Source: an uncultured Lachnospiraceae bacterium
GTDB taxonomy: Bacteria > Bacillota > Clostridia > Lachnospirales > Lachnospiraceae
Assembly: GCA_947630005.1 (NCBI GenBank)
Contig: CANRGB010000009.1
Location: forward strand, 1-44,633
DNA length: 44,633 nucleotides
Direction: 5' to 3'
Part shown: one piece after another, positions 5,571 through 38,818 of the stretch
Position numbering within the stretch: the stretch's first letter is position 1
Layout of the letters: every line of letters begins with the position of its first letter
The notes under the pieces: generated by a model
What the model saw: the letters and a program-made list of their open reading frames with translations, nothing else
Database searches by the model: none
What the model was told of the DNA's origin: nothing
Position numbers and translations under genes: made by a program

Positions 5571-5595
5571 ATAATCCCTGAAAACCCTTTATACT
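5567..5595 (+). promoter_or_regulatory. Sigma-A-type promoter before mraY
   Basis: TTGAAT (5567-5572), a 17-base spacer and TATACT (5590-5595). The -35 box overlaps the stop codon of the upstream PBP gene. It lies about 90 bases before the mraY start and would allow mraY and the genes after it to be transcribed independently of rsmH-ftsL-PBP. Confidence 0.65.
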
Positions 5596-5683
5596 TGTAA
5601 CATATGATAATCGTGCGTGGTTCGCCGCCAAAGAAAAAGCAGGCAGGTTATCTGAAACAGAAGATCAAAAGAAGAGGTGTAAG

Positions 5684-6658: not shown

Positions 6659-6783
6659 ACGCTTTCATCCCGTCCGGAATCTGACCGCAGAGGCCGGGAT
6701 ACCGCGGAAAATACCGCCAGGATTCGCGTATTCTGCGCGGAGGACAAAACAGAGATCACAGGATCATAATGGAGGAGCTTGAA

Positions 6784-8142: not shown

Positions 8143-8153
8143 GAAGTGGTAAA

Positions 8154-9230: not shown

Positions 9231-9305
9231 AATATGGCGGTACCGACATAGAAATAGAGGCGTAACTTTAGAGTTCATACTTTCACTGCCTCGCGAAGTG
9301 TGTTA

Positions 9306-9320
9306 CGTTCACGGAGTGAA
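9306..9320. repeat. Short inverted repeat before murA
   Basis: GTTCAC-GGA-GTGAAC is a 6-base inverted repeat. It is nested within a looser repeat (GTTAC before it and GTTAC after it) and is preceded by a second partial inverted repeat, TTCACTGCCTCGCGAAGTG. It sits between ftsW and the possible murA promoter, so it might be an operator or the 3' end structure of the upstream transcript. Confidence 0.4.
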
Positions 9321-9330
9321 CAGTTACACC

Positions 9331-9359
9331 TTGGACATTCTCCGCGCATATACTATTGT
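9331..9359 (+). promoter_or_regulatory. Possible promoter before murA
   Basis: TTGGAC (9331-9336), 17 bases, TATTGT (9354-9359), inside an AT-rich patch with several TATA-like hexamers (TATACT at 9349, TATTAT at 9361). The exact -10 is uncertain. The 195-base gap between ftsW and murA holds this and the inverted repeat at 9306, and I see no gene in it. Confidence 0.35.
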
Positions 9360-9425
9360 ATATTATGGTATAGGGCTTTTGCAGTTTATCTGCTGCATGA
9401 GTGTTTTCCAGAACGGAACCGGGGG

Positions 9426-10715
9426 ATGACCTTGAAGCATATAACGATAACAGGAGGAAAACCACTCTACGGACAGATAAAAATACAGGGGTCCAAGAAT
9501 GCGGCTTTACCTATTCTGACTTCCTGTATTCTGGGAAACGGAGTCTGCCGGATCGACAACTGTCCCTGCATCAGCGATGTGGATGTTACCCTTAGGATGC
9601 TTAAGACGGCGGGCTGCAGGGTCAGCCGCGGCGGCAGCACGGTGACTGTTGACGCGTCGCAGATTACCTGCTGCGAGGTACCTGAAAACGAAGCGTCCCG
9701 CATTCGTTCGTCTATCCTGTTTCTTGGGGCGCTGACCGGCAGGTGCCGGACCGCCTCGCTGCCGTTTCCGGGAGGCTGCGCGATCGGGGAAAGACCGGTC
9801 AATCTTCATATAGGCGCGCTGGAAAAGCTGGGCGTCTGTTTTGAGGATACCGGAAGGCTTGAGGCGGATGGAAGAGGGCTTCGCGGGGCGAGGGTGACGC
9901 TTCCGTTTCCGAGTGTGGGAGCGACGGAAAACGTTATACTCGCGGCGGTTCTCGCGCCCGGAAAGACGCTGATCCAGAACGCCGCCCTTGAGCCGGAGAT
10001 CGATGAGCTCTGCGAATTTCTGAATCTGCGCGGAGCAAGAACCGTCAGAAAACCGGACGGAAGTATTCTGATTGAAGGCGTCAGGACGCTGGGACCGGTC
10101 AGATATTCGATAAAACCGGACCGGATCGTCGCGGGAACCTATCTGTTCGCGGCCGCGGCCGCGGGCGGAAAGATCAGAATCTGCGGGCTGCCCGCGGCGG
10201 GACTGGAAAATCCGCTCGCGGTGCTGAAAAAGATGGGGATGAAGATAACGGCAGAGAACAGCTTCTGCGAGATAGATTCTCCCGGAATTATCCGGGCGGT
10301 TCCGTATCTGGAGACGGCTCCGTATCCGGGATTCCCGACGGATCTGCAGTCCCCGCTGCTTGCGGCGCTTTCAGAAGCCAGGGGAGAAAGCCTGATCCGG
10401 GAAAGAATATTTGAAAACCGTTTTCGTGTCGTTCCGGAACTTATACGGATGGGAGCGAAAATAAAGGAGGAAAAAGACTGCGTAAGAATCTGCGGGAGCC
10501 AAAGCCTGCATGGAGCGTCGGTCGCGGCGACCGATCTGCGGAGCGGGGCAGCGCTTGTGATTGCCGGGCTTGCGGCGCGCGGAGCAACAAAAGTGGGCGG
10601 CCTTGAATATATTGAGCGCGGATATGAGAATATTTGCCGTGACCTGAGTCTGCTCGGAGCGGAAATTTCTCTTTCTGACGGGGTTTTGGCGGAAGAAATG
10701 CCGCGGAAAGTATAA
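9426..10715 (+). CDS. murA: UDP-N-acetylglucosamine 1-carboxyvinyltransferase MurA
   Basis: Catalyses the first committed step of peptidoglycan synthesis, transferring enolpyruvate from PEP to UDP-GlcNAc; it is the target of fosfomycin. From ATG 9426 it has 429 residues, the normal MurA length. Diagnostic blocks: IQGSKNAALPIL (Lys and Asn of the active site), GGCAIGERPVNLHIGALEKLG with the PEP-binding cysteine (about Cys118), DRIVAGTYLFAAAAAGG, YPGFPTDLQSPLLAAL, RSGAALVIAGLAARG and YIERGYENI. Upstream frame continues to a GTG at 9300, but that stretch covers the inverted repeat and promoter-like DNA and does not look like MurA. The ribosome binding site is weak. MurA inside the dcw cluster is less common than its usual separate location. 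Confidence 0.95.
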   Translation: MTLKHITITGGKPLYGQIKIQGSKNAALPILTSCILGNGVCRIDNCPCISDVDVTLRMLKTAGCRVSRGGSTVTVDASQITCCEVPENEASRIRSSILFLGALTGRCRTASLPFPGGCAIGERPVNLHIGALEKLGVCFEDTGRLEADGRGLRGARVTLPFPSVGATENVILAAVLAPGKTLIQNAALEPEIDELCEFLNLRGARTVRKPDGSILIEGVRTLGPVRYSIKPDRIVAGTYLFAAAAAGGKIRICGLPAAGLENPLAVLKKMGMKITAENSFCEIDSPGIIRAVPYLETAPYPGFPTDLQSPLLAALSEARGESLIRERIFENRFRVVPELIRMGAKIKEEKDCVRICGSQSLHGASVAATDLRSGAALVIAGLAARGATKVGGLEYIERGYENICRDLSLLGAEISLSDGVLAEEMPRKV

Positions 10716-10758
10716 GATAAACAGGAATTGCACACGATGAAAAGGTACAGGTGAGAAG

Positions 10759-12003
10759 ATGGGGCGAATTAGAAGGAAAAGGCAGAGATTGATCCGTCTT
10801 GTAAGTTTAGCGTTACTGGTGGCGGCCGTCCTGATTATAATACTGGTATTTCAGGTGAAGACCGTGATCATAAACGGGAATGTGCGCTGGTCGGGCCAGG
10901 AGATTGCGGAGGATCTTTCGTATGATTTTTGGACGCAGAATACGCTGTTTCTGATGTGGAAGCACAGGAACGGGGAAGCGCTGGAGCGGCTGCCTTATCT
11001 TTCTTCCCTGAAAATCAAGCTTGATTCTCCCGGAAAGATCACGGTCACCGTGACAGAGAAGGAACTGGCAGGGTATGTATACGGCGAGGATCAGAATCTG
11101 TATTTTGACGAGGATGGGATCATACTGGATATCACGGATCAGGTATATGACGGGGTCCTGGCAGTCACCGGCGTGAAGATGGGGGAGCCTGTGCTGTACC
11201 AGAAGGTGCCGACGGAAAGCAGCGCGCAGCTGCGGACGATTCTGAGCATCACGCAGCTTCTGCGTTATCAGGAGCTCACCGCCCGGGAGATCCGTTTTTC
11301 CGATAACATGGATATCACGGTCAGGATCGGAAACGTGGACGCGGCGCTGGGCCAGGATGAGTATCTTGAGGAGAAGATTGCGAATCTGCGCGCGATCCTT
11401 GATGTGATGAGCGGCAGTTCAGGAACGCTTCATATGGAGAATTTTACCGGGAAAAACGAACCGGTGTCCTTCTCGGAAGGGGAGATACCGGAATCGGTCA
11501 ACAAGGAAAGCGGCGCGGAAGAAGAAACGGAACCGGAGAGCGGCGCGGATGAACTGCCGGCGGATGGAGAAGGCGCGGACGGAACCGGAGAAGCCCCGGC
11601 GGACGGAGAAAACGCGGACGGCGCCGGAACCGATGAAGCGCCGGCCGGCGGAGAAAACGGGGATGGCCCGGCGGATGGAGAAGACGCGGAGAACACCGGA
11701 GCTCCGGCGGAGCCGGACGACGGAAGCGGCGGCGCGGATGAAAACGCTGCGGACGGAGAAAACGCGGACGGACAGGATAATCCGGAGGAGGATGACGGCG
11801 AAGACCAGCCGGATGAGGAGCCTTTCTATTTTATGGTGTTTGATTCCTCCCATACGCTCCGGTATGACGCCCACGTTGTGGACGGAGTGGTTGTGGACTC
11901 GAACGGAGTTCCGATCGACGGATGCATCGTGCAGGAGGACGGAAATGTGAAGGACGCCTACTGGAATGTCATAGATCCGTCGACCGGCCAGCTTGCCCAG
12001 TAA
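10759..12003 (+). CDS. divIB: FtsQ/DivIB-type division protein with long acidic C-terminal extension
   Basis: A bitopic membrane protein of 414 residues: a basic N-terminus (GRIRRKRQRLIRL), one membrane segment (VSLALLVAAVLIIILVF), then a POTRA-like domain (VIINGNVRWSGQEIAEDL) and a beta domain resembling FtsQ (LKIKLDSPGKITVTVTEKELAGYV). It stabilises the FtsL-DivIC subcomplex of the divisome. Odd features lie after about residue 235: a low-complexity Ala/Gly/Asp/Glu/Pro region of about 120 residues, including the repeated octet ADGENADG at 281-288 and 331-338, then a final block of about 60 residues. Part of that block resembles the tail of the first PBP in this cluster. ATG 10759 is preceded by AGGTGAG. 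Confidence 0.9.
   Translation: MGRIRRKRQRLIRLVSLALLVAAVLIIILVFQVKTVIINGNVRWSGQEIAEDLSYDFWTQNTLFLMWKHRNGEALERLPYLSSLKIKLDSPGKITVTVTEKELAGYVYGEDQNLYFDEDGIILDITDQVYDGVLAVTGVKMGEPVLYQKVPTESSAQLRTILSITQLLRYQELTAREIRFSDNMDITVRIGNVDAALGQDEYLEEKIANLRAILDVMSGSSGTLHMENFTGKNEPVSFSEGEIPESVNKESGAEEETEPESGADELPADGEGADGTGEAPADGENADGAGTDEAPAGGENGDGPADGEDAENTGAPAEPDDGSGGADENAADGENADGQDNPEEDDGEDQPDEEPFYFMVFDSSHTLRYDAHVVDGVVVDSNGVPIDGCIVQEDGNVKDAYWNVIDPSTGQLAQ
11599..11771 (+). repeat. Exact 23-bp in-frame direct repeat inside divIB
   Basis: The 23 bases at 11599-11621 recur identically at 11749-11771. Both copies are in frame and encode ADGENADG. Shorter related units (GCGGATGGAGAA, GCGGACGGAG) lie between and before them. 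Such repeats can change copy number by slippage or recombination, so the length of this linker may vary between strains. Confidence 0.85.
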
Positions 12004-12073
12004 GCGCTCCGTCGACGCGGCCGGCAGTGTTTCGGAAGAAGGGATGAAAGTCGCAATATTTTTAAAATAGGTC

Positions 12074-12102
12074 TTGATAATTTTTTAGAATACCAGTATT
12101 AT
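12074..12102 (+). promoter_or_regulatory. Sigma-A-type promoter of ftsZ
   Basis: TTGATA (12074-12079), a 17-base spacer and TATTAT (12097-12102). Transcription would begin near 12109, giving ftsZ a structured leader of about 130 bases. Confidence 0.6.
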
Positions 12103-12111
12103 AGATAAGAG

Positions 12112-12156
12112 TACGGTGATACTGGGGCAAGTGCAGCCCAAAGATGCGGCACCGTA
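12112..12156 (+). other. Structured 5' leader of ftsZ
   Basis: The outer arms TACGGTG (12112-12118) and CACCGTA (12150-12156) pair perfectly and enclose an inner GGGC/GCCC stem. This 45-base element would be the very start of the ftsZ transcript. I do not recognise a known riboswitch class; it may stabilise the mRNA or be a binding site. Confidence 0.45.
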
Positions 12157-12240
12157 AATTATAGGATCAGAAAGAGGAGAGGCTGTTTTCGGAGAAAGTG
12201 TCAGTCGGTGTCCCGTCAGCTACAAGAAGGAGGAAACACG

Positions 12241-13434
12241 GTGTTAGAAATTATGTCAAATGAATCAGAGTCCGCTGCGAAGATACTGGTTATAGGTGTC
12301 GGCGGTGCTGGAAATAACGCGGTAAACAGAATGGTTGAGGATACGATCTGCGGTGTGGAGTTTATTGGAATAAATACAGATAAGCAGGCACTGCTGCTCT
12401 GCAAGGCTCCGACGACGATTCAGATCGGTGAGAAAGTTACCAAGGGACTCGGCGCGGGCGCAAAGCCTGAGGTAGGCCAGCAGGCCGCTGAGGAAAGCAC
12501 GGAAGAGATCCGCCAGGCAGTGCAGGGGGCGGATATGGTGTTTGTCACCTGCGGAATGGGCGGCGGTACAGGTACCGGGGCAGCTCCTGTTATCGCGGGT
12601 ATTGCGAAAGATCTGGGGATTCTGACAGTCGGCGTTGTGACGAAGCCGTTCCGTTTTGAGGGCAGAACCCGTATGAATAACGCGCTGGCGGGGATTGAGA
12701 AGCTGAAGGACAGTGTGGATACTCTGATCGTAATTCCGAACGACAAGCTCCTTGAGATCGTGGACCGCAGAACCACGATGCCGGAATCCCTGAAAAAGGC
12801 GGATGAAGTGCTTCAGCAGGCAGTGCAGGGAATTACGGACCTGATCAATCTTCCGGCCCTGATCAATCTTGACTTTGCGGACGTACAGACCGTCATGATC
12901 GATAAAGGAATCGCGCATATCGGAATCGGACAGGCCAAGGGAGATGACAAAGCGCTTGAGGCGGTAAAGCAGGCGGTTGCGAGCCCGCTGCTTGAGACGA
13001 CGATTGAGGGCGCTTCCCATGTGATTATCAATATTTCCGGAGATATCTCTCTGATGGACGCGAACGACGCGGCAAGCTATGTTCAGGAGCTGGCCGGCGA
13101 CAACGCGAATATTATTTTCGGAGCGCTGTATGACGATACATACGCGGATGAAGCAAGTGTTACCGTCATAGCGACAGGACTTGAGGATGTAAATTTAAAT
13201 CAGGGTTCGGGCCGTCAGACCGGCGGTATGAGAAACCAGAAAAACAGCGCGTCTGAATTCAGCTACAGGCGGGAGGCATCCTCCGGACCGTTCCCGTTCC
13301 AGAGAAATCAGACATCCGCGTCGGGAACGGGATCCCAGCCGCGTCAGACGACGCAGTTTGGATCAGTGCGCATGCCGGAGCGCAAGGTGCAGGAGAAGGA
13401 TATCCAGATACCGGATTTCCTGCGCAGGAATTAA
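12241..13434 (+). CDS. ftsZ: Cell division GTPase FtsZ
   Basis: The tubulin-like GTPase that forms the Z ring. It has 397 residues from GTG 12241, chosen because AAGGAGG at 12227-12233 is 7 bases upstream; an ATG at 12253 is possible. Landmarks: [17 protein letters not shown] at the N-terminus, the GTP-binding signature [21 protein letters not shown], and [11 protein letters not shown] of the synergy loop. After a variable Gln/Ser/Thr-rich linker of about 60 residues comes the conserved C-terminal peptide [11 protein letters not shown], the docking site for membrane anchors and regulators. It is the last gene of the dcw cluster here. No ftsA is adjacent, as is usual in clostridia that use SepF. 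Confidence 0.98.
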
Positions 13435-13449
13435 TTGAGGGCAGGTTAA

Positions 13450-13488
13450 GGCGTGGCTTCCTTTCGGGAAGTTCACGCCCTTCTTTTT
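13450..13488 (+). terminator. Rho-independent terminator of ftsZ
   Basis: GGCGTG (13450-13455) pairs with CACGCC (13474-13479), with an inner TTCC/GGGAA stem, followed by CTTCTTTTT. It starts 15 bases after the ftsZ stop and immediately precedes an interspersed repeat copy. Confidence 0.85.
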
Positions 13489-13489
13489 G

Positions 13490-13577
13490 TGCACAGGCCC
13501 AGGCAAGGAAAACAGCTGCTGACGCAGCCCTGGGCCGCGCGGGCGAGCAGGAGGGAAAAAACCGCCTCCTGCTCGAT
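13490..13577 (+). repeat. Interspersed intergenic repeat, copy 2 (complete)
   Basis: A full copy with two hairpins. Hairpin A pairs GGCCCAGG with CCTGGGCC around an inner GCTGC-TGAC-GCAGC stem. Hairpin B pairs GAGCAGGAGG with CCTCCTGCTC and ends CGAT. It lies between the ftsZ terminator and the spoIIGA promoter. The stretch is open in the spoIIGA frame, which would wrongly lengthen that gene if not recognised. Confidence 0.9.
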
Positions 13578-13598
13578 CACAGGCCCGATTCGCCTCAA

Positions 13599-13674
13599 TG
13601 TCGGATTATGTCGACAGAAAATAGGAAAAGCTCTCCCTGTTTTGACAAAAGAACATCGTTCTGTGGAGTATACT
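13599..13674 (+). promoter_or_regulatory. spoIIG-type promoter with long spacer and candidate Spo0A boxes
   Basis: TTGACA (13642-13647) and TATACT (13669-13674) are separated by 21 bases instead of 17. In B. subtilis the spoIIG promoter is known for a 22-base spacer and dependence on phosphorylated Spo0A. Here TGTCGACA at 13609-13616 matches the core of the 0A box (TGTCGAA), a near match TGTCGGA lies at 13599-13605, and the reverse strand over the -35 box reads TTGTCAAAA. Arrangement and target gene both fit Spo0A activation. Confidence 0.75.
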
Positions 13675-13713
13675 GTAGTCATACGGCAGCCGCAGGAGGT
13701 GTTCTTTTCTTTT

Positions 13714-14475
13714 GTGTATTTTGAAGTTTACATAGACCAGTTTTTTGCGGAACAGCTTTTATATGGATTTCTTCTGCTGTACCTGACGGCGCGGGCGCTC
13801 GGAGAAAAAAGGCCGGCGCCGGGGATCCTGGCCGCCGGAGCCATCTTCGCCGCCTGCCAGTGCGCGTACCTTCTCACGGGAAGGAGAGGACTGTCGGCTG
13901 CGGGAATGTTTCTGGGCGCGGCCGCGGCATTCGGGCGCGGGAAAAGGATCCGCGGGGCGTTTCTCCTGTTTTTAATCACATTTTGTTTTGGAGGAACACT
14001 CCAGGCAGTTCTGGCTCTGTTTTCCGTTCCGGTCTGCGCCGGCGCGCTGGCGGCGTTCTTTCTGCTTTCCTTCTCCTGGAGAAGATATGAGAGATGCCGG
14101 CGTCAGAAGGAACAGGAAGCGGATGTCTCTCTGTTCTGGAAAGGCCGGAACATCGCGCTTCGCGCGCTTGTGGACACGGGGAACCGGCTGAGGGAGCCGA
14201 TTACGCAGAAACCTGTGAGCATTCTGGACGCGGAGAGCGCGCGGAAATTTCTTGGAGACGGATGGGAACGGGAGAATGGATTTTTCCTTGTTCCATATCA
14301 CAGCATCGGAAGAGAACACGGCTGGATGCGGGCGGTTATTCTGGACAAAATGCAGATCAGTACGCCGTCCGGAAAAAGCGAGATTGAAAAACCCCTCCTG
14401 GCGGTCAGCAACGAAAGAGTGAGCCTGAAAGATACTTATCAGGTCATATTAAATCCGGAACATATCAAAATCTGA
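13714..14475 (+). CDS. spoIIGA: Sigma-E processing peptidase SpoIIGA
   Basis: A membrane-embedded aspartic protease that removes the pro-sequence of pro-sigma-E in the mother cell after a signal from the forespore. From GTG 13714 the protein has 253 residues: about five hydrophobic segments in the first 125 residues, starting [20 protein letters not shown], then a soluble domain with the catalytic motif [12 protein letters not shown] (Asp-Thr-Gly). The frame stays open upstream to 13453, but that region is the repeat and the promoter, so I reject the longer form. GGAGG at 13695-13699 is 14 bases from the GTG, a long spacing that leaves the exact start slightly uncertain. sigE follows after 19 bases, as in Bacillus and Clostridium. 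Confidence 0.93.
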
Positions 14476-14494
14476 CAGGAAAAGGAGAACGGAA

Positions 14495-15235
14495 ATGATA
14501 GTAAAAATTGCAATGCCTCAGCGCTTCCAGCTCAAAATGGCGGCGGGATTCGGAGATATGCTGTTTGGAAGGACGAACGATACGCATTATATCGGAGGGA
14601 CGGAGGTGCTTCCACCTCCTCTGGAACCGGAAGAAGAGCAGGCGCTTCTTGCCATGCTTGACCGGGGAGAGGAAGGAAAAGCGAAAAGCGAGCTGATCGA
14701 GAGGAATCTCAGGCTGGTCGTCTACATAGCGAAAAAATTTGACAACACCGGAGTCGGTGTGGAGGATCTGATCTCCATCGGCACGATCGGACTGATCAAG
14801 GCGATCAATACGTTTAAGACGGACAAAAAGATCAAGCTTGCCACCTATGCTTCCCGCTGTATTGAAAATGAGATCCTGATGTATCTGAGGAGGAACAGCA
14901 AGACGAGAATGGAGGTCTCGATCGATGAGCCGCTGAACGTGGACTGGGACGGAAATGAGCTGCTGCTCTCCGATATCCTCGGAACGGATGAGGATGCGAT
15001 CGGCCGGGACATCGAGACGGAAGCGGAGTACCATGTGCTGAACCGGGCGATCGACCATCTCTCGGAGCGTGAGCGCACGATCGTCCATCTGCGGTTCGGA
15101 TTTACTACGAGGGACGGGGAGGAAAAGACGCAGAAGGAGGTCGCGGATCTGCTCGGCATCTCCCAGTCCTATATCTCTAGGCTGGAAAAGCGGATCATCA
15201 AGAGACTCAGGCGGGAAATCGTCAGATTTGAATGA
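14495..15235 (+). CDS. sigE: RNA polymerase sporulation sigma factor, pro-sigma-E
   Basis: The early mother-cell sigma factor, made as an inactive precursor. It has 246 residues. The first 30 or so form a pro-sequence ([21 protein letters not shown]) that precedes [19 protein letters not shown], the conserved start of mature sigma-E where SpoIIGA cuts. Region 2 is clear ([52 protein letters not shown]), as is region 4 with the helix-turn-helix [20 protein letters not shown]. The ATG at 14495 has AAGGAG upstream. It is co-transcribed with spoIIGA from the candidate Spo0A-dependent promoter. Confidence 0.97.
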
Positions 15236-15302
15236 GCGCGGCTGTCAAGGGCTAAAACTTTTTTTATTTTATATCGGAAGCGAATAGCGCGGCTGTATAA
15301 GG
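15235..15302 (+). repeat. Short direct repeat between sigE and sigG
   Basis: AGCGCGGCTGTCAAGG (15235-15250) recurs as AGCGCGGCTGTATAAGG (15286-15302). The first copy overlaps the end of sigE and a run of seven T residues lies between the copies. The repeat is too short to be sure it has a role. Confidence 0.4.
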
Positions 15303-15343
15303 TGAATCATTTTACTGAACCTTACGTTTAGGAGGATGATCAC

Positions 15344-16123
15344 ATGTCGTTGAATAAAGTAGAAATATGCGGTGTCAACACGTCCAGACTTCCGGTGCTG
15401 ACCGCGAAAGAGAAGGAAGAGCTCTTTTCGCGGATCAAAGACGGAGACGAGGAAGCGCGCGAGCTGTACATCAAAGGAAATCTGAGGCTTGTGCTCAGCG
15501 TGATCCGGCGTTTTTCCGCAAGCAATGAGAACGCGGATGATCTGTTTCAGATCGGGTGTATCGGACTGATGAAGGCAATCGATAATTTCAATACAGAGAT
15601 GGATGTGAAATTCAGTACCTATGCCGTGCCAATGATTATCGGGGAAATACGCCGTTATCTCAGAGACAACAACTCAATCCGTGTCAGCCGCTCTCTGCGG
15701 GATACGGCGTACAAAGCGATCTACGCAAAAGAAAATTATACGAAGACACACCAGAAAGAGCCGACGATCCATGAGATCGCGGAGGAGATCGGGGTTTCAA
15801 AAGAGGACATCGTCTACGCGATGGACGCGATACAGAGTCCGGTCAGCCTGTATGAACCGGTCTACACAGAAGGCGGAGATACGCTGTATGTGATGGATCA
15901 GATCAGCGACAAAAAAAATAAAGAAGAAAACTGGGTGGAATCCATTTCCTTAGGGGAGGCAATCAAACGGCTCGACACAAGAGAGCGCCATATCATCGAA
16001 ATGCGGTTTTTTGAGGGCAGGACTCAGATGGAAGTGGCCTCCGAGATCGGAATTTCCCAGGCCCAGGTCTCAAGACTTGAAAAAAATGCTTTAAAAAGCA
16101 TGAGAAATTATCTGCGGGTGTGA
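15344..16123 (+). CDS. sigG: RNA polymerase sporulation sigma factor G
   Basis: The late forespore sigma factor. It has 259 residues and starts with the sigma-G-specific block NKVEICGVNTSRLPVLT, which distinguishes it from sigma-F and carries the region contacted by the inhibitor CsfB/Gin in Bacillus. Region 2 reads GNLRLVLSVIRRFS and LFQIGCIGLMKAIDNFN. Region 3 includes VSRSLRDTAYKAI, and region 4 holds QMEVASEIGISQAQVSRLEK. TAGGAGG lies upstream of ATG 15344. The order spoIIGA-sigE-sigG is conserved across spore-forming Firmicutes. The gene runs into a terminator hairpin shared with the opposing ylmC-like gene. Confidence 0.97.
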   Translation: MSLNKVEICGVNTSRLPVLTAKEKEELFSRIKDGDEEARELYIKGNLRLVLSVIRRFSASNENADDLFQIGCIGLMKAIDNFNTEMDVKFSTYAVPMIIGEIRRYLRDNNSIRVSRSLRDTAYKAIYAKENYTKTHQKEPTIHEIAEEIGVSKEDIVYAMDAIQSPVSLYEPVYTEGGDTLYVMDQISDKKNKEENWVESISLGEAIKRLDTRERHIIEMRFFEGRTQMEVASEIGISQAQVSRLEKNALKSMRNYLRV

Positions 16124-16141
16124 GATCACCCGCATTTTTTT
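16114..16141. terminator. Bidirectional terminator embedded in two converging gene ends
   Basis: GCGGGTG (16114-16120) and CACCCGC (16127-16133) flank six bases containing both stop codons. On the plus strand A and seven T residues follow, giving a good terminator for sigG. On the minus strand the stem forms the last codons of the ylmC-like gene. Confidence 0.85.
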
Positions 16142-16383
16142 AAGGCTGCTTCCTCATCGATATCGACCAGTATGATATCGGGACCGGTCTGTACGATACA
16201 GCCCCAGGGAATGATATATTCCGTATCGCGCCCGAAAAACCAGCAGAATTTGCCCGGCCCCGGAACCGTCAGCGCGCAGACGCAGCCGGTCCGGCAGTCG
16301 ATATCGAGATCGCTGACGCACCCGATCGAGCGGCAGGTGCGGACATTGATGACTTCCTTTCGTTTCAGTTCAAACAAGCGCAT
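16126..16383 (-). CDS. YlmC/YmxH-family PRC-barrel sporulation-associated protein
   Basis: An 85-residue soluble protein of the YlmC/YmxH family (a single PRC-barrel-like domain), usually found near sporulation genes; its biochemical role is not established. Family features: start MRLFELKRKEVINV, the ISDLDID-like block SDLDIDCRTGCVCALTVPG, GKFCWFFGRDTEYIIPWGCI and the end DIILVDIDEE. I chose the ATG at 16383 because GTGAGG is well placed before it and because homologues begin with MRL; the frame extends 12 codons further upstream. It converges with sigG, with only two bases between the stop codons. It has several more cysteines than I would expect for the family. Confidence 0.85.
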   Translation of the reverse strand: MRLFELKRKEVINVRTCRSIGCVSDLDIDCRTGCVCALTVPGPGKFCWFFGRDTEYIIPWGCIVQTGPDIILVDIDEEAALKKCG

Positions 16384-16494
16384 CCCGGCCTCACTTCTTA
16401 TCCGGCATATTTTTATCATGATATGCGCGAAGGGAAAGGAATGTGAACAGTGGCTGTAACGGCGGCCGTTCTCCTGTTTTTCCGTTCATTCTGA

Positions 16495-16523
16495 TTGACA
16501 TTATTCCTGCGAATCGGTATAGT
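16495..16523 (+). promoter_or_regulatory. Sigma-A promoter of aroE
   Basis: A consensus TTGACA (16495-16500), 17 bases, and TATAGT (16518-16523), about 78 bases before the aroE start. It also separates the sporulation block from the shikimate genes. Confidence 0.75.
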
Positions 16524-16601
16524 TATCAGGAAGGCTTATTGTGAAAGAACGGATTTCAAACCGCTTTTATAAACAGGAATTTACGAAAGAAGGGGATTAT
16601 C

Positions 16602-17468
16602 ATGTCAATTCAGATCACCGGACACACAAGGCTCGGCGGACTGCTCGGCTCGCCTGTCGGACACAGCCTTTCGCCGCTGATGTATAATGAAACGTTCCGT
16701 CTGCTGGGAATCGACTGGGTCTATCTGTGCTTTGATACCGGGCAGGCCGATCTGAGAGATCTGGTCCGGGGCTTTCGGGCGATGAACGTGTTCGGCTTCA
16801 ATATCACAATGCCCGACAAAGAACGGATCATGGAGCACCTGGACGGACTTTCCGAGGCGGCAAAGATGATCGGAGCGGTCAATACCGTGAAAAATGAAGA
16901 CGGAAAACTGATCGGGCATAACACGGATGGGATCGGGTATGTGCGTTCGGCCGCGGAACAGGGATATGACATCAAAAGCGGACCGATGACGCTGCTCGGG
17001 GCAGGAGGAGCAGCCTCTTCCATTGCGGTGCAGGCCGCTCTTGACGGGGTTCCTGTCCTCCATATTGTCAACAGGAAGGGCCGCTCCTGGAGTCACGCGC
17101 AGCATATCGCCGATCTGATCAGCCGCAATACCGCCTGCCGCGCCGATCTGACGGATCTGGCAGATCAGACGGCCCTGAGGAAATGCCTTGCGGAGAGCAC
17201 GCTTCTGACGAACGCCACATCCATCGGAATGGCTCCGCTTACGGATGCCTCTCCGATCCCGGATGTCTCCATGCTGCATCCCGGGCTGACCGTTTCGGAT
17301 ATCATATACAATCCGGGGTGCACGAAGCTTTTGTCGGATGCCGGCCGGGCGGGCTGCAAAACCTTCAACGGAATGTATATGCTGCTTCATCAGGGCGCGG
17401 CGGCGTTTCGGATCTGGACCGGACTTGACATGCCGGTGGAAAAGATCCGGGAAAAATATTTCAGATAA
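16602..17468 (+). CDS. aroE: Shikimate dehydrogenase AroE
   Basis: An NADP-dependent cytoplasmic enzyme that reduces 3-dehydroshikimate to shikimate on the way to chorismate. It has 288 residues. Substrate-binding blocks: LLGSPVGHSLSPLMYN (Ser pair), NITMPDKE with the catalytic Lys, and AVNTV...GHNTDGIGYV with the catalytic Asp. The nucleotide-binding loop is LLGAGGAASSIAVQAALDG, and the C-terminus has FNGMYMLLHQGAAAFRIWTG. ATG 16602 follows AAGGGG. It converges with aroD, which supplies its substrate, with 16 bases between their stop codons. Confidence 0.97.
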   Translation: MSIQITGHTRLGGLLGSPVGHSLSPLMYNETFRLLGIDWVYLCFDTGQADLRDLVRGFRAMNVFGFNITMPDKERIMEHLDGLSEAAKMIGAVNTVKNEDGKLIGHNTDGIGYVRSAAEQGYDIKSGPMTLLGAGGAASSIAVQAALDGVPVLHIVNRKGRSWSHAQHIADLISRNTACRADLTDLADQTALRKCLAESTLLTNATSIGMAPLTDASPIPDVSMLHPGLTVSDIIYNPGCTKLLSDAGRAGCKTFNGMYMLLHQGAAAFRIWTGLDMPVEKIREKYFR

Positions 17469-18345: not shown

Positions 18346-18374
18346 TTGACAGTATTCGCGGATTCCGTTATACT
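18346..18374 (+). promoter_or_regulatory. Sigma-A promoter of the nrdR operon
   Basis: TTGACA (18346-18351), a 17-base spacer and TATACT (18369-18374). No other promoter is evident before the three downstream genes of unknown function, so this probably drives all four. Confidence 0.8.
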
Positions 18375-18428
18375 CAATGATAGAAAAATCATGGATGGGA
18401 ATGACAGCCAATAAGGAGGGGATTTTTC

Positions 18429-18878
18429 GTGAGATGTCCGTTTTGCAACAGGGATAATACGCATGTGGTGGATTCCAGGCCTGCGGACGATAATTGTGCG
18501 ATCCGCAGAAGAAGGCTGTGCGATGACTGCGGGAGACGGTTTACCACTTATGAGAAAGTGGAGACGATTCCGCTGATCGTCATTAAAAAAGATCAGACGC
18601 GTCAGGAATATGACAGAAGCAAGATAGAGGCGGGCGTCATGCGCGCGTGCTATAAGCGTCCGCTCCCCATTGATGAGATACGTGAGATGATAGACCGCAT
18701 CGAATTTGAGATATTTAATCTCGAGGAAAAAGAGATCGCGAGCAGCGTGATCGGCGAGATTGTCATGGACAAACTGAAGGATCTGGATGCGGTGGCATAT
18801 GTCAGATTTGCGTCGGTTTACCGCGAATTCAGGGATATTAATACGTTTATGGATGAACTGAAGAAGATTCTGGAATGA
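18429..18878 (+). CDS. nrdR: Transcriptional repressor NrdR
   Basis: A zinc-ribbon and ATP-cone repressor of ribonucleotide reductase genes that senses ATP and dATP. It has 149 residues, near the family norm. The zinc-binding N-terminus reads MRCPFCNRDNTHVVDSRPA with a second CDDCGRRF pair, and IRRRRLC between them forms the DNA-contact region. TTYEKVETIPLIVIKKD leads into the ATP-cone (about residues 46-136). The GTG start at 18429 has AAGGAGG 9 bases upstream. It is the first gene of a run that continues, 24 bases later, into three genes of unknown function. I saw no ribonucleotide reductase gene in the window. Confidence 0.97.
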   Translation: MRCPFCNRDNTHVVDSRPADDNCAIRRRRLCDDCGRRFTTYEKVETIPLIVIKKDQTRQEYDRSKIEAGVMRACYKRPLPIDEIREMIDRIEFEIFNLEEKEIASSVIGEIVMDKLKDLDAVAYVRFASVYREFRDINTFMDELKKILE

Positions 18879-18902
18879 GTTTTCAGATACGAAAGCGATT
18901 CG

Positions 18903-21900
18903 GTGATTGATTTGAGAAAAAGAATAGAGCAGTTGCTAAATGGTAAATTTGAGTATAAAGCCCCGCGTCTTCTGATGGAGCCGGAGACGCTGACGCTGCA
19001 TATGCGGCCGGGGGAGCGCATGCAGGGAAGTTTCCGCCTGTCGGCGGATTCGGGCGTAAAATTCAGAGGCTTTCTTTTTTCTTCGAATCCGCGCATGCTG
19101 TTCGAACCGGCGGAGTTTGCCGGCATGACGAATGAGATCCGCTATCAGGCGGACACGAGCGGGATGAGCAGCGGGATGACGGAAGACGGTGTTTTTACGA
19201 TCTGTTCGGAGCTGGGCGAGCACACGCTTCCGTATTCGATTTCTGTGGAGGAGGAACCGCAAAAGGAGGAAAGCAGCGAGGTTCCGGATGTCAAAGAGCT
19301 CGCGGCGCTTGCCGAGCAGGACTTTCAGAAAGCTTATCGCTGTTTTATCTCGGAGGATTTCAGGAAGCTGCTTGAAAAAGACTGGCCGGGGCTTTACGGC
19401 ATGTACGAGTCGATCCGGAAGTCTTCGTTTAATTATCAGAGTTTCGAAGAATTTTTAAACGGCGCGGGAGTGAAAGAACCGGTTGAGATCTCGGTGGACG
19501 CGGATCGGATCGTCCACTACGGCGTGAAGGAAACGGCGCAGGAATCGTTCCGCGTGACCAGACGCGGATGGGGATTTACGAGAATCTCGCTGCAGTCGGA
19601 TGCGCCGTTTGTCCGGCTTGAAAAAACCCTGATCACGACGGATGAGTTCGCGGGGAGCACGTTCGATGTGCGCTACATACTGGATCACGCGCTCATGCAT
19701 GCCGGAAATAATTATGCGCGGGTGCGGATCGACACGGTTTATCAGACGATCTATGTGAACTTTATTTTAAAGAAATCCGGGGATCCTTCCCGCGTTCACG
19801 CGGGGCGCATCCGCAAAAGGATGCAGTACAAGCTGGAGAACCATTACGTGAGCTTCCGTCTGCAGAAACAGAAAGCCGAGACCTGGATCTCACGTTCGGT
19901 CAAACTGATAGGAAACTACAAAAGGTCGGGCGGAACGGATGTGTTCGCGGATCTGTTTCTCATTCAGCTGTACTACGCGGACAATAAAAAACAGAAGGCG
20001 GTCCGCCTTTTAAAAGAGATCAAGGAAAATACCGGAAGGCTGGAAACGGTGGAGCAGTATGGATTTTATCTGTATCTGACGACATTTTTCTGCCAGGATG
20101 CCTCTTATGTGGATCAGATGGAAGACGAGGTCCGGAAACTGTTTGAGGCGAACAAAACGAGCTGGGTACTCCAGTGGATCCTGCTGTATCTCCAGGAGGA
20201 GCTTCTTGCCAACGACGACGCGAAATATCAGGCGGTGTCCCGTCAGTTTGACTGCGGATGCCGCAGCAGAATCATGTATCTTGAGGCGTATCAGATCCTG
20301 AAGCGCAATCCGTTCATGCTCCGCCGTCTCGGCGGCTTTGAGCTGCATCTGCTTCGCTTTGCCGCGCAGGAGGAGGTGCTCACGGAGGAGATCGCGGTCC
20401 AGCTTTCGGAGCTTGCCCTGCACTACGGAACGTATGATCCGATTCTGTACAGGGTGCTTGAGTACGCCTGCAGGATTTTCCCGTCGGACGAACTGGTGCG
20501 GGCGATCTGCCTGCTCCTGATGAACGGGCAGAAAAAGGGGCCGGAATATTTTAAATGGTACGCATCAGGCGTAGAGCGCGGGATCCGTCTCACAGGGCTC
20601 TATGAATATTATATGGGATCGATGGAATTTACGGACATGAACGATATGCCCCAGATCATCCGGATGTATTTTTCGTATGATACGTCGCTTGGCTATGAAA
20701 AGCGCGCGGCGGTATACCGCAATGTCCTTGCAAATAAGGAACTGGATCCGCAGACTTACCGGACGCACCGGTCCGCAATGCAGAAATTTGTGCTGGAGCA
20801 GCTCGAGATGGGACATCTGACGGAAGATCTCGTTGTGCTCTACCAGGAACTGCTCCGTCCGGAGGCGCTGAACCGCTCCTGCGTGGAGAAACTGTTCCGC
20901 ATGCTGGAGAGTTATGAGGTGGTCTGCGAGTCCCCCCAGATGAAACAGGTGGAAGTCTGCTCCCCGTATATGAATTATGAGGAAGTGACTCCGTTTGTGA
21001 ACGGCCGGGCGGTGATCCAGGTATATGAACCGGACTCTGCCGTCATGGTGGTCGATCAGGAAGGGAGCCGTTATCCGGCGTTTCTGCTGTGCAGTATCCG
21101 GAGGATTTTTGAAAATGAGACGCTGCTTGGCTGGTGCGTCAGGAAACGGACCGAACTGCCCGGCGCGATGCTGTATGTCACGAGCCGCGCGCTTCAGAAG
21201 GAAGAGCCGGGGCCGGATGAGTTCTGGTATCTGTCGAACGCGTGTGAGAAGGGATACTTTACCGGAAAATACAGGGACCGGCTCAGAGAGCGGGTTCTTC
21301 TGTATTACACGGCGCATCCGCTGGACGAAACGATATCGGAATTTGTGAGGAAAATTCCGATTCAGGAATATGTAAAAGTGAATAAGGCGGCGCTTGTCGC
21401 TCTGCTTGCGGAAGAGGGCCTGTGCGAGCTGGCTTTTGATCTGCTCGACCGGTACGGAGTGGAGGGGATCCCTCTGATCCAGCTTGTCCGTGTCTGCAGC
21501 CGCATGGTGCTCGCCTGCGAATTTGAGGAGAAGCGTACGCTGCTCTCTTTATGCCATTACTGTTTCGCAAGCGGGAAATACGATGATAAGCTTCTCCGCT
21601 ACCTGCTTCTCTATTATGAGGGGCCGGTGCAGGATATGATGCAGATCTGGCAGGCCGGAACGGAATTTGAGCTTGACACAATGCTGATCGAGGAAAAAAT
21701 CATAACGATGCTGCTGTTTACGCGCTGCCATACGCAGGGGACCGAACCTGTTTTTGAGGCGTACCGGAAAAAGATGGGGCGCAGAAAGCTGTGCCTTGCC
21801 TATGTAAATATGAAGGCCTATGAGTATTTTGTGAAGGGCGTGCCCGTCGCGGCCTCCGTGTTCCGGTATATCGAGCAGGATTATGAGGAGCTCTGGGAGA

Positions 21901-22463
21901 GAGGCAGGCTGAATGAGCAGGAAGATGTGTGCAGGCTTGCGCTGCTGCAGTATTACGCGAACTGTCCGCCGCTTGGCGAGCGTCAGGAGCTGTTTGCGGA
22001 GAGGCTTCTCGAGGAATACAACGCAAAGAATATGAGATTTGCCTTCTGGACGAAGTTCAGCGAAAAACTGCTGGCTCCGTATCAGATGGAAGGAAAGGTT
22101 TATGTCGAATACGCCGCCGATCCGAAGAGTACGGTGCTCCTCTATTTTCGCAAAAACAAAGAGGAGGATTACAGGAAAGAGACGATGAGGAACTGCTTTG
22201 AGGGGATATTTGTCAGAGAGTTCACACTGTTTTACGGTGAGGAGCTGGAATGCCGCCTGGAAGAAGTTTCGGAAGGAAACGTGAAGCGTTCGGATACAAG
22301 GTATTTGTCGGCGGGCGCCGGCAGAACCGATTTTACAAAGTACGGGCTTTTAAACAGTATGATCCGGACGAGAGAGCAGGGAGACGAAAAGACCCTGAAG
22401 GAGGAACTGGAGGCGTTTGTGATCCAGGAATACCTGGCAAAAGAATTATTTACACTGGTATAG
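18903..22463 (+). CDS. Large DUF5717-like protein: beta-sandwich domains plus helical repeats
   Basis: A 1186-residue protein of unknown function. I recall this type as DUF5717, common in Lachnospiraceae; the name is from memory. No signal peptide or membrane segment is visible, so it is probably cytoplasmic. About residues 20-120 look like a beta-sandwich (LTLHMRPGERMQGSFRLSAD), and residues 195-300 like a second one (EISVDADRIVHYGVKETAQE). From about 335 to 720 the sequence is helical with repeat character like TPR or HEAT (LFLIQLYYADNKKQKAVRLL, LEYACRIFPSDELVRAICLL). A short beta insert follows near 690-760, then more helices, and a final region with VYVEYAADPKSTVLLYFRKN. The GTG start has a weak ribosome binding site. 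It lies directly between nrdR and an actin-fold protein gene. Confidence 0.75.
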   Translation: MIDLRKRIEQLLNGKFEYKAPRLLMEPETLTLHMRPGERMQGSFRLSADSGVKFRGFLFSSNPRMLFEPAEFAGMTNEIRYQADTSGMSSGMTEDGVFTICSELGEHTLPYSISVEEEPQKEESSEVPDVKELAALAEQDFQKAYRCFISEDFRKLLEKDWPGLYGMYESIRKSSFNYQSFEEFLNGAGVKEPVEISVDADRIVHYGVKETAQESFRVTRRGWGFTRISLQSDAPFVRLEKTLITTDEFAGSTFDVRYILDHALMHAGNNYARVRIDTVYQTIYVNFILKKSGDPSRVHAGRIRKRMQYKLENHYVSFRLQKQKAETWISRSVKLIGNYKRSGGTDVFADLFLIQLYYADNKKQKAVRLLKEIKENTGRLETVEQYGFYLYLTTFFCQDASYVDQMEDEVRKLFEANKTSWVLQWILLYLQEELLANDDAKYQAVSRQFDCGCRSRIMYLEAYQILKRNPFMLRRLGGFELHLLRFAAQEEVLTEEIAVQLSELALHYGTYDPILYRVLEYACRIFPSDELVRAICLLLMNGQKKGPEYFKWYASGVERGIRLTGLYEYYMGSMEFTDMNDMPQIIRMYFSYDTSLGYEKRAAVYRNVLANKELDPQTYRTHRSAMQKFVLEQLEMGHLTEDLVVLYQELLRPEALNRSCVEKLFRMLESYEVVCESPQMKQVEVCSPYMNYEEVTPFVNGRAVIQVYEPDSAVMVVDQEGSRYPAFLLCSIRRIFENETLLGWCVRKRTELPGAMLYVTSRALQKEEPGPDEFWYLSNACEKGYFTGKYRDRLRERVLLYYTAHPLDETISEFVRKIPIQEYVKVNKAALVALLAEEGLCELAFDLLDRYGVEGIPLIQLVRVCSRMVLACEFEEKRTLLSLCHYCFASGKYDDKLLRYLLLYYEGPVQDMMQIWQAGTEFELDTMLIEEKIITMLLFTRCHTQGTEPVFEAYRKKMGRRKLCLAYVNMKAYEYFVKGVPVAASVFRYIEQDYEELWERGRLNEQEDVCRLALLQYYANCPPLGERQELFAERLLEEYNAKNMRFAFWTKFSEKLLAPYQMEGKVYVEYAADPKSTVLLYFRKNKEEDYRKETMRNCFEGIFVREFTLFYGEELECRLEEVSEGNVKRSDTRYLSAGAGRTDFTKYGLLNSMIRTREQGDEKTLKEELEAFVIQEYLAKELFTLV

Positions 22464-22473
22464 GGTGAAGAAT

Positions 22474-23745
22474 ATGATACAGGCGGTAAATGAACTGATT
22501 CTCGGAATTGATCTGAGAAGGGAACATTCGCAGGTGAGTTATTATCATCAGTCCTTTAAGGAACCGGTGACGGCAGGCATGTCCCAGGGGGAGGAGGATC
22601 CTTTTCTCCCGATGGCTCTGCGGATGGACGAGGACGGGAACTGGCATTTCTGGGATGGTCTGCCGGACGAAAAAAATCAGAAGGACAAGTGCAGGGTAGC
22701 GGGGATCTATGAGCTGGTCGAGCGGGGGGACGATACGCCGGTGTGCGGTGAGAAAGTGTCCCCCGCGGGAATTCTCGGCATTTATTTCAGATGCTGCATG
22801 GATCTTCTGCGCTTTGTCACGAAACAGACAAGATATCAGGTTATGGTAACGGTCCGGAAACTGACGGAACCGTGGAACAGTGTGATTGTGGAAGCGCTTG
22901 AGAGCATCGGGATCGAACGGAAATATATTTTCCTTCAGGATTATCTCTCATCCTTCTACTATTACACGGTAAATCAGAAAAAAGAGCTCTGGCAACAGGA
23001 TGTCGCGCTTCTCGAATATGAGGAGGAAGCGATGGTCGGCTATGTTCTCCATATTGACCGTTCTACCCGTCCGGCTGTCGCGGCGGTTGAGAAAGTGGCC
23101 ATACAGCCGGTCGGCAGCGAGGTCCGCAGGGACAGGAGCGGCAAAGAGTGGGACGCGGAGAAGGACCGGCTGTTTTTTGAGCTTCTCAAAAAGGTATTTG
23201 AGCGCAGGAACATCTCGGTCAGTTATATGACCAGCGACTTTTACAGCAAAAGCTGGGCGGTGCGCTCCATACAGTATATGTGCTACAGACGGCGCGCTTA
23301 CCAGGGACAGAATCTGTATTCCCGCGGCGCGTGCTATGCGGCGATGGAGCGGGCCGGAATCATTGCCGACCGGGGAATCATTTTCAGCGGAGGCGATATG
23401 GTGGCCGTCAATCTCGGAATGGAGATGCGGATCCGCGGAAAAGAGACGTATTATCCGCTTGTGACGGCCGGGGTCAACTGGTATGAGGCCCATCATGTCT
23501 GTGAGTTTATTCCGGCCGGAGAACGTGAGATCCGGATTCTGTCGCGCCCGATGAGGGCGGGGGACATGGTGACGCACATCCTGCGGCTGAACGGACTGCC
23601 GGACCGGCCGGACCGCACGCTGCGGCTGAGGATGACTTTGTATTTTACGTCTGTAAACTGCTGCCATGTGGAGCTGGAGGATATGGGATTCGGAGGACTG
23701 TTCCGCTCTTCCGGCATGCGCTGGGAGCGGGATATCCTGTTTTAG
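22474..23745 (+). CDS. Actin/Hsp70-fold-like protein (DUF5716-like)
   Basis: A 423-residue protein that I take to be DUF5716-like (name from memory). Weak actin/Hsp70 features: the start LILGIDLRREHSQVSYY resembles the phosphate-1 strand-loop of Hsp70 (GIDLGTTNS) but lacks the Gly-Thr-Thr; ERKYIFLQDYLSSFYYY fits the helix before the second subdomain; ADRGIIFSGGDMVAVNLGMEM resembles an adenosine-type Gly-Gly motif. The last 75 residues (IPAGEREIRILSRP, LRLRMTLYF, VELEDMGFGGLF) are beta-rich, like the start of an Hsp70 substrate-binding domain. ATP binding is therefore possible but not assured. ATG 22474 follows AGGGTG; a GTG at 22465 is an alternative. It almost overlaps the gene before it and is followed 17 bases later by a TPR gene. 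Confidence 0.7.
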   Translation: MIQAVNELILGIDLRREHSQVSYYHQSFKEPVTAGMSQGEEDPFLPMALRMDEDGNWHFWDGLPDEKNQKDKCRVAGIYELVERGDDTPVCGEKVSPAGILGIYFRCCMDLLRFVTKQTRYQVMVTVRKLTEPWNSVIVEALESIGIERKYIFLQDYLSSFYYYTVNQKKELWQQDVALLEYEEEAMVGYVLHIDRSTRPAVAAVEKVAIQPVGSEVRRDRSGKEWDAEKDRLFFELLKKVFERRNISVSYMTSDFYSKSWAVRSIQYMCYRRRAYQGQNLYSRGACYAAMERAGIIADRGIIFSGGDMVAVNLGMEMRIRGKETYYPLVTAGVNWYEAHHVCEFIPAGEREIRILSRPMRAGDMVTHILRLNGLPDRPDRTLRLRMTLYFTSVNCCHVELEDMGFGGLFRSSGMRWERDILF

Positions 23746-23762
23746 GAGGGCGGGTAGGAAAC

Positions 23763-24557
23763 ATGAGTTATGATCTGTGCCTGTCGGAACAGGCGAAAAC
23801 GCCGTATTTTATTGAGAGCATACGAGCGGATATCTATTCTCTCGAGGAACTGTGCTACTATCTGTATCATAATATCTATCTGATCGACGAGTCCATCATA
23901 AACGAGAAGCTGTGCGACTGGATCCGAGACGAGCTGGGGCTGACCAGGCTGTACCGGCAGCTTTACGCTCAGCTGGAGAAAAAAGAAGGGGCCGCGCTTT
24001 TCGTGTTTCCGATCTTCCGGGAGGCGGGCTACCTGAACGTGCAGGAGGGAAGAGAATTTCAGGAAAAGCTTTCGCGCCTTGAGGTCCAGTCCGAGGAAGT
24101 CCGTCAGAAAATGCGGGGAGATTATCTCGTAAAAGGAAAAATGTTTGCGAGGGCCATCGGCATATACCGCCGGATCCTGGAGAAAAAAGGTCCCGGCAGG
24201 CTTGGCGTGCAGTTTTATTCTTCCATCTGGAACAACCTGGGCGCCGCGTACGCGGGGCTGTTTCAGTATGATAGGGCGGCGGAATGTTTTCTCGAGGCCT
24301 GGAAGCTGGGAAGAACCAAAGAGGCGTTCCGCAAATATGTCAGCGTCCTTCCCCTCTATATGTCTGAGCAGGAGTATGAGAAGAAGCTGAAAGAGCTGGA
24401 TGCGGACTCTTATCTTGTTCAGAGGATCCAGGAGTATAACGCCGATCTGTGCAGAAAAGCGGGCGCGCGGGAGAAGGTGGAGGAGATATGCTCCGGGGAT
24501 GTGGACGCGTATCTCGACGATTTAAAGCGGCAGTACCGCAGGAGCGCGAAATTGTAG
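23763..24557 (+). CDS. TPR-repeat protein of unknown function
   Basis: A 264-residue soluble protein and the third member of the cassette after nrdR. The first 75 residues are alpha-helical (SLEELCYYLYHNIYLIDESI) with LCDWIRDELGL. A long helix follows (EFQEKLSRLEVQSEEVRQKM), then at least one clear TPR pair: KGKMFARAIGIYRRILEK and SSIWNNLGAAYAGLFQYDRA continuing AECFLEAWKLG. The charged C-terminus ends RQYRRSAKL. TPR domains bind peptides or proteins, so it may be an adaptor for the actin-fold partner, but that is inference. The ATG at 23763 follows TAGGAAAC. The purC promoter begins 30 bases after the stop. Confidence 0.75.
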   Translation: MSYDLCLSEQAKTPYFIESIRADIYSLEELCYYLYHNIYLIDESIINEKLCDWIRDELGLTRLYRQLYAQLEKKEGAALFVFPIFREAGYLNVQEGREFQEKLSRLEVQSEEVRQKMRGDYLVKGKMFARAIGIYRRILEKKGPGRLGVQFYSSIWNNLGAAYAGLFQYDRAAECFLEAWKLGRTKEAFRKYVSVLPLYMSEQEYEKKLKELDADSYLVQRIQEYNADLCRKAGAREKVEEICSGDVDAYLDDLKRQYRRSAKL

Positions 24558-36697: not shown

Positions 36698-36724
36698 TTA
36701 GCACTCAAACCTAGTGAGTGCTAA
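36698..36724 (+). promoter_or_regulatory. CIRCE operator (HrcA binding site)
   Basis: A perfect match to the CIRCE consensus: TTAGCACTC (36698-36706), nine bases, GAGTGCTAA (36716-36724). HrcA binds this to repress groESL until heat shock. It lies between the promoter and groES. Confidence 0.98.
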
Positions 36725-36765
36725 TAAATCAAAAGGATATAGGATCATCGAAGGAGGAATCAGAT

Positions 36766-37186: not shown

Positions 37187-38818
<1,632 letters not shown>

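Follow-up and report, generated by a model that had tools for sequence, protein, structure and literature searches.

The described systems closest to the locus considered here are the DnaK/GrpE chaperone pair, the Ssz1 protein of the eukaryotic ribosome-associated complex and the GAP1-N2/DO-GTPase systems (Kaur et al. 2020; PMC7159879). The locus is a cluster of three genes (the trio), encoding in order a DUF5717, a DUF5716 and a tetratricopeptide repeat (TPR) protein, within the 44,633-nucleotide stretch of contig CANRGB010000009.1 that was analysed (the window). DUF5716 shares with DnaK the order and fold of a nucleotide-binding domain (NBD) and a β substrate-binding domain (SBDβ), but differs in lacking the ATPase residues and the lid, and no GrpE gene is present at the trio locus. 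Ssz1 likewise combines an Hsp70 fold with the absence of a lid and of ATP hydrolysis, its SBDβ being held by a partner (PMC7083937). Ssz1, however, is able to bind ATP and has a J-domain protein as its partner, whereas DUF5716 lacks the nucleotide motifs, has a short lobe-IIB region and adjoins solenoid and TPR proteins. Hsp70, GrpE, TPR and β-sandwich parts also occur together in the GAP1-N2/DO-GTPase systems, and a subset of GAP1-N2 systems is the nearest printed description found. These are, however, variable conflict loci, whereas the genes described here are near-universal, and neither the GTPase nor the GAP1 that define those systems was found among the proteins scanned. The window proteins belong to the Pfam families DUF5716_C (PF18980), DUF5717_N (PF18984) and DUF5717 (PF18983), whose descriptions give no function. 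No paper on this operon or these families was found in the open-access literature (subscription papers and preprints lay outside the search), where a single paper carries either of the names DUF5716 and DUF5717, in an unrelated context.

On the basis of sequence comparison and structural models, we suggest that the trio represents a reduced form of an Hsp70 machine, and would constitute an ATP-free docking scaffold around a pseudo-Hsp70 (probability approximately 0.55). The descent and predicted fold of DUF5716 are well supported by these comparisons; the cellular job of the trio is an inference. Its members, for which the names DUF5716 and DUF5717 given in the original prediction are borne out by clear Pfam membership, are as follows:

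18903 to 22463, plus strand: DUF5717, 1186 amino acids (aa), GTG start; matches PF18984 (E-value: 1.9e-233) and PF18983 (E-value: 6.8e-88)
22465 to 23745, plus strand: DUF5716, the putative pseudo-Hsp70, 426 aa from a GTG or 423 aa from the ATG at 22474 (likely start); matches PF18980 (E-value: 1.5e-91)
23763 to 24557, plus strand: TPR protein, 264 aa; homologous to the TPR gene located towards the end of a larger operon

The trio and a larger Hsp70 operon

The larger operon was examined in thirteen loci (L042-L050, L170, L171, L179 and L180) from other families of the order. L042-L050, L170 and L179 derive from genomes outside the window's family with a DUF5716_C match (67 such genomes), and L171 and L180 from genomes with a DUF5717_N match only. 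The operon encodes DUF5717_N, DUF5717, Hsp70-1, a GrpE-domain protein, DUF5716, Hsp70-2, Hsp70-VWA and TPR proteins; DUF5717 is often split in two, the TPR gene is usual, and a coiled-coil gene with two transmembrane (TM) stretches is sometimes present. All of Hsp70-1, GrpE, DUF5716, Hsp70-2 and Hsp70-VWA are found in 10/13 loci, where the Hsp70-2 of L179, removed by an overlap filter yet lying at a separate profile match, is counted as present. Loci L047 and L048, each at a contig end, are without some genes, L046 begins inside DUF5717, L049 holds GrpE and DUF5716 only, and no TPR match was found in L171 and L180. In L042, the TPR (4208-5231) and Hsp70-VWA (5343-7384) genes are each spread over two frames, reflecting either a genuine interruption or faulty assembly. 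The GrpE-domain proteins of L050 (7375-9309) and its relatives carry a long N-terminal part of up to ~500 aa, which in L050 gave no Pfam match reaching the cut-off.

All three trio genes have counterparts in this operon, which relates the trio to the Hsp70 machine by descent. The operon's order of DUF5717, DUF5716 and TPR recurs at 79 of 81 trio loci (the window plus 80 loci, the top-ranking ones of 273 obtained by a DUF5716 match), and wherever the trio is complete its order and strand are the same (79/79); L076 and L117, the two incomplete loci, both stop at a contig end. The grouping of the three genes is thus more than a chance arrangement. No intact Hsp70s or GrpE-domain gene were found in the trio neighbourhoods (window, L031-L041 and L071-L150). 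Furthermore, 27 trio genomes gave no orthologue-level matches to Hsp70-2 or Hsp70-VWA (identity at most 43%), and matches of 55-100% identity occur in 7/7 full-operon genomes. Two GrpE matches are present in each of the latter genomes (7/7) and one in 24/27 trio genomes. The other Hsp70s of the window's genome were considered as operon genes and discarded, none giving an orthologue-level match.

A phylogenetic tree splits Hsp70-2 and all DUF5716 proteins from Hsp70-1, Hsp70-VWA and DnaK by a branch with 100/100 support. Trio-type DUF5716 proteins, that is, those without adjoining operon Hsp70s, form one group (100/100), which the full-operon DUF5716 of L042 joins at 100/95. Since the trio nests within the full-operon carriers when the tree is rooted on DnaK, reduction is the simpler reading. 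Alignment of the DUF5716 family profile with that of the operon Hsp70-2 (hhalign) extends end to end over 398 columns (probability: 99.1%; E-value: 9.4e-19), against an E-value of 0.54 for an unrelated control pair. The Hsp70-2 of L043 matches DUF5716 in 8/9 outgroup loci (E-values: 3e-43 to 5e-66), the L042 DUF5716 being absent among the three matches listed for that locus. The window DUF5716 has no direct Pfam HSP70 match, and the full-operon DUF5716 of L050 matches this family at 1.9e-16. By sequence, DUF5716 is shown to be a diverged relative of the operon Hsp70-2. A comparison against PDB sequences gave a lone match to argininosuccinate synthase (E-value: 0.035), which was set aside. Locus L172 (G202:C40), from outside the window's family, holds the trio only and no full operon; since its DUF5716 groups with the trio-type sequences, transfer or contamination is likely.

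Fold and motifs of DUF5716

The Hsp70/actin fold proposed earlier for the product of 22474-23745 is recovered in the structural model and its matches to DnaK structures. The model comprises the two domains of an Hsp70, with an NBD at approximately residues 9-303 and an SBDβ at approximately 304-426. Structures of Hsp110 (Sse1) and Ssz1 are among the best fold matches, and DUF5716 may, as such, be a co-chaperone of the housekeeping DnaK in the manner of these proteins, brought to its clients by DUF5717 and the TPR protein. The lid-less, non-hydrolysing Ssz1 offers a precedent, but the Hsp110 and Ssz1 matches do not exceed those to DnaK itself, and Ssz1 retains the ATP binding for which DUF5716 lacks the motifs. 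Furthermore, no J-domain match was found among the operon proteins scanned (those of L050, L042 and one of L043), and a strong housekeeping-type GrpE is present in 27/27 trio genomes. We consider this role improbable.

The residues K70 and E171 (DnaK numbering) and the GGGT motif of phosphate-2 were compared across 37 DUF5716 sequences (12 full-operon and 25 trio-type, the latter including L172). K70 is present in 0/37, E171 in 1/37 and GGGT in 0/37, and each equivalent is absent from 80 trio-type sequences (0/80). The phosphate-1 loop (TT in Hsp70s), described as degenerate in the original prediction, proved to be so in all 25 trio-type sequences. All three features are kept in 9/9 Hsp70-1, 9/9 Hsp70-2, 8/8 Hsp70-VWA reaching the site (the L042 fragment was left out) and 4/4 DnaK proteins. 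As the motifs are gone in the full-operon DUF5716 too, the ATPase was lost already at the full-operon stage, and an active ATPase in DUF5716 was rejected on the motif loss. An Hsp70 fold without ATPase residues supports the pseudo-ATPase that had been postulated at the centre of the trio.

There is also no lid, as 138 residues follow the NBD compared to ~272 in DnaK and the model ends with the SBDβ; the operon Hsp70-1 and Hsp70-2 are likewise without room for one (medians of 148 and 164 residues after the NBD). The stretch from phosphate-2 to the adenosine motif, where lobe IIB lies in DnaK, has a median length of 145.5 residues (116-152) in the 12 full-operon sequences and of 73 residues (63-110) in the 25 trio-type sequences, with the same median and range in the set of 80. 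Two trio-type segments reach 110 residues, in L108 through an insertion beside phosphate-2. The shortest full-operon segment, that of L171, has GrpE adjoining. GrpE acts by moving lobe IIB (PMC4753570).

Peptide binding by DUF5716 is uncertain because the residues that form the arch over the DnaK groove are not kept. Across 105 sequences (with repeated sequences and two overlapping sets among them), the M404 position is Gly in 103 and the A429 position is Asp, His or Asn in 81, while the V436 pocket position is hydrophobic in 105/105. The operon Hsp70-1 and Hsp70-2 do not keep the arch residues either. The arch loss would fit a purely structural scaffold, in which the Hsp70 fold serves as a building block only and the complex organises the membrane or another machine, with no unfolded clients bound. 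The long predicted solenoid and β-sandwich scaffold of DUF5717 and the two-TM coiled-coil partner gene found in 90/200 genomes of the window's family also fit such a role. The invariably hydrophobic pocket position, however, argues against it, and relatives adjoining intact Hsp70s and GrpE point to client handling; we regard a structure without clients as rather unlikely, although it is the strongest of the alternatives.

Partner proteins and the proposed complex

The model of DUF5717 (predicted local distance difference test score: 88.6) contains the two β-sandwiches (approximately residues 20-118 and 192-292) and the long helical repeats expected from the original prediction. By model and fold comparison, the β-sandwich domains are PapD/MSP-like and the helical part is a TPR-like α-solenoid; the fold matches lie mostly over the β-sandwiches, so that the alignment barely probes the remainder. 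DUF5717 is a single protein in the window's family; several other families of the order have two distinct genes in its place. The locus of the window's family thus has a single DUF5717 and a lid-less DUF5716 with a short lobe-IIB region, and is without the operon Hsp70s and GrpE-domain gene. DUF5717 is proposed, on its model, as the scaffold of the putative complex. Shorter DUF5717 proteins, with frames of ~1091-1111 aa and a PF18984 match only to approximately position 780, are encoded in L187 (G692), G541, G542, G649 and others.

Direct Pfam matches of the third protein to TPR families are weak and below the cut-offs (best E-value: 5.6e-4), and its TPR identity stands instead through homology, its family profile matching the operon TPR at an E-value of 1.5e-26. 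The window protein itself matches the operon TPR (TPR2) in six loci holding the gene (phmmer E-values: 6.4e-7 to 4.5e-12). As a homologue of the larger operon's clear TPR protein, it bears out the TPR partner proposed beside the Hsp70-like protein. Behind the TPR gene, a ninth gene for a protein of coiled-coil-like character with two TM-like stretches is found in L042, L050, L170 and L179 and in seven loci of the type of the window's family. Of its 20 best matches, 19 are ~200 bases or less from the TPR gene, and the twentieth has no listed TPR position. The gene points to a membrane location in some members of the family; it was not found in the window's genome or in the other same-genus genome of that sample.

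We suggest that DUF5716 no longer cycles with ATP, and would instead act as a constitutive docking and assembly module. The DUF5717 solenoid and β-sandwiches, together with the TPR protein, would hold it in a stable complex, its SBDβ may hold a client or a neighbouring strand, and the two-TM partner may place the complex at the membrane in about half of the family. Several observations weigh against this proposal. The motif loss is compatible with nucleotide binding without hydrolysis, and the substitutions at M404 and A429 detract from client docking. In one full-operon lineage (L171/L180) a short DUF5716 of 412 aa stands beside GrpE, so that lobe-IIB shortening and the loss of GrpE need not go together. 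The tree contains long branches, that of L171 above all, and its root rests on the DnaK outgroup. The genome-wide orthologue search covered only Hsp70-2 and Hsp70-VWA among the operon Hsp70s; a second GrpE-domain gene over the cut-off, adjoining an Hsp70 away from the trio, occurs in the trio genome G215, and weak second GrpE matches occur in the trio genomes G063 and G169.

Distribution and genomic neighbourhood

The window's family, which we infer to be Lachnospiraceae as most of 80 named loci are so labelled, was sampled through 200 genomes of 199 genera. DUF5716 is present in 195, DUF5717 in 196 and the TPR gene in 194 of these; all three occur in 193/200, mostly as single copies, none in two (G535 and G596, 93% and 98% complete) and a part in five. 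Four of the five partial genomes are 67-70% complete, while in the fifth, G603 (99% complete), only DUF5717 was found. Independent occurrence of the genes, named beforehand as evidence against a functional trio, is therefore real but rare (G545 and G603), co-occurrence being otherwise near-universal. In G545 the DUF5717 gene lies on a different contig from the DUF5716-TPR pair, away from contig ends, whereas in G517 the separation reflects a contig end. DUF5716 is also present in 33/35 same-genus genomes. In an order-wide sample of 196 genomes, DUF5717_N occurs in 94 and DUF5716_C in 89, with both in 87, one alone in nine and neither in 100; two of the nine, G104 and G166, carry a diverged DUF5716. 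Class-wide, DUF5717_N was found in 11/291 genomes, ten of which are the window's own and others of its family; the remaining match, a weak one in G342 of another order (E-value: 8.3e-5), was dropped as it has no operon-like neighbours.

Ratios of non-synonymous to synonymous substitution (dN/dS) between the window and L071-L073 are 0.087-0.089 for DUF5717, 0.069-0.083 for DUF5716 and 0.039-0.046 for the TPR gene, with 0.019-0.030 for the comparison genes nrdR and purF. Against the more distant L074, they are 0.146 for DUF5716, 0.085 for the TPR gene and 0.040 for purF, with DUF5717 and nrdR saturated. These low values show that the trio comprises working genes under strong purifying selection. 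A second, diverged DUF5717-DUF5716-TPR copy (L041/L176; G031:C245) is found in G031, which also carries the usual trio and has 5% contamination; its DUF5716 shares 29% identity and its DUF5717 is cut by the contig end.

This distribution bears on a further explanation, in which the trio would serve in conflict or defence and resemble the GAP1-N2/DO-GTPase systems, with their GTPase lost. One subset of those systems is reported to comprise two HSP70s, a GrpE and FNIII-repeat proteins that carry a DnaJ or TPR fusion (PMC7159879), and the window's genome has a DO-GTPase/Hsp70/Hsp70-VWA locus elsewhere. Three operon Hsp70s also match the candidate-defence model PDC-M61B (E-values: 4e-5 to 3.9e-11) and the operon TPR matches a second such model, PDC-M71B (E-value: 2e-9), probably through shared domains. 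Defence systems are, however, patchy, whereas the trio is near-universal and mostly single-copy in its family. No DO-GTPase or GAP1 was found in the trio or in the operon proteins of L050, L042 and one of L043 (E-values up to 1), and the trio has no PADLOC match at an E-value of 0.01, making a defensive role very unlikely. The locus elsewhere in the window's genome (L161; G000:C2:5000-24000, 6017-17182) holds, one after another, DO-GTPase1, an unmatched gene, Hsp70, Hsp70-VWA (761 aa) and a protein of 1046 aa, an arrangement like that of the GTPase-centred systems in Kaur et al. 2020. In L163 of the same genome (G000:C3:30000-42000, 4235-10180), the gene for a 596-aa protein with weak Hsp70 likeness lies two genes ahead of that for an 822-aa NB-ARC-type ATPase, and L162 (G000:C6:18000-32000, 6239-9094) encodes a 952-aa protein with an Hsp70-like N-terminus.

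Upstream of the trio lie two further features, the second of which is judged to be a neighbour outside the system:

18346 to 18374, plus strand: sigma-70-like promoter match upstream of nrdR, TTGACA-17-TATACT, spacer 17, 11/12 consensus positions; consensus match only
18429 to 18878, plus strand: nrdR; Zn_ribbon_NrdR (E-value: 1.6e-19) and ATP-cone (E-value: 1.6e-21)

The open reading frame (ORF) list confirms three close-packed genes after nrdR, with gaps of 10 bases (from the start at 22474) and 17 bases, and the consensus scan recovers the good promoter ahead of nrdR. The reported absence of an internal promoter is insecure, as sites with 10/12 matches lie on the plus strand at 21673-21700 and 22449-22478; both strands of the region together hold 15 promoter-like sites against 6.1 expected. 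A link between the trio and deoxynucleotide status through nrdR, raised in the original prediction, would rest on neighbourhood only. While nrdR is directly upstream in 44/79 loci, it is not in 35/79 (upstream sequence exceeds 800 bases in 72 of the 79 and is 800 or fewer in seven), in L079, L082 and L105 it lies nearby on the opposite strand, and it was found in 0/13 full-operon-type loci. Other neighbours are about as common, with purC or purF close downstream in 38/79, and such a link appears extremely unlikely.

No Rfam match was found in the window at gathering scores. Heat-shock control of the trio of the CIRCE type (controlling inverted repeat of chaperone expression) was rejected, the exact inverted repeat, the only pattern tried, occurring in one of 187 loci (L164), which is the stretch with the window genome's grpE and dnaK start. 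Within the window it occurs once, far from the trio (36701-36721), preceding ORFs 36718-37050 and 37193-38818, the lengths of which would presumably suit groES-groEL.

The middle gene of a trio kept by almost all sampled genomes of the family under strong purifying selection, and for which Pfam gives no function, can thus be assigned to the Hsp70 superfamily, and the way from a complete, ATP-driven operon to a remnant that apparently does without ATP can be traced. More tentatively, we propose that the ATPases and exchange factor were lost family-wide, while the pseudo-Hsp70, scaffold and TPR protein may have been kept as a near-universal, nucleotide-independent client-docking complex, in some members of the family at the membrane. 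This would place a bacterial example alongside the known pseudo-Hsp70s of eukaryotes, and provides a natural series for asking what the Hsp70 fold does without ATP, with a function that is testable in culturable gut bacteria.

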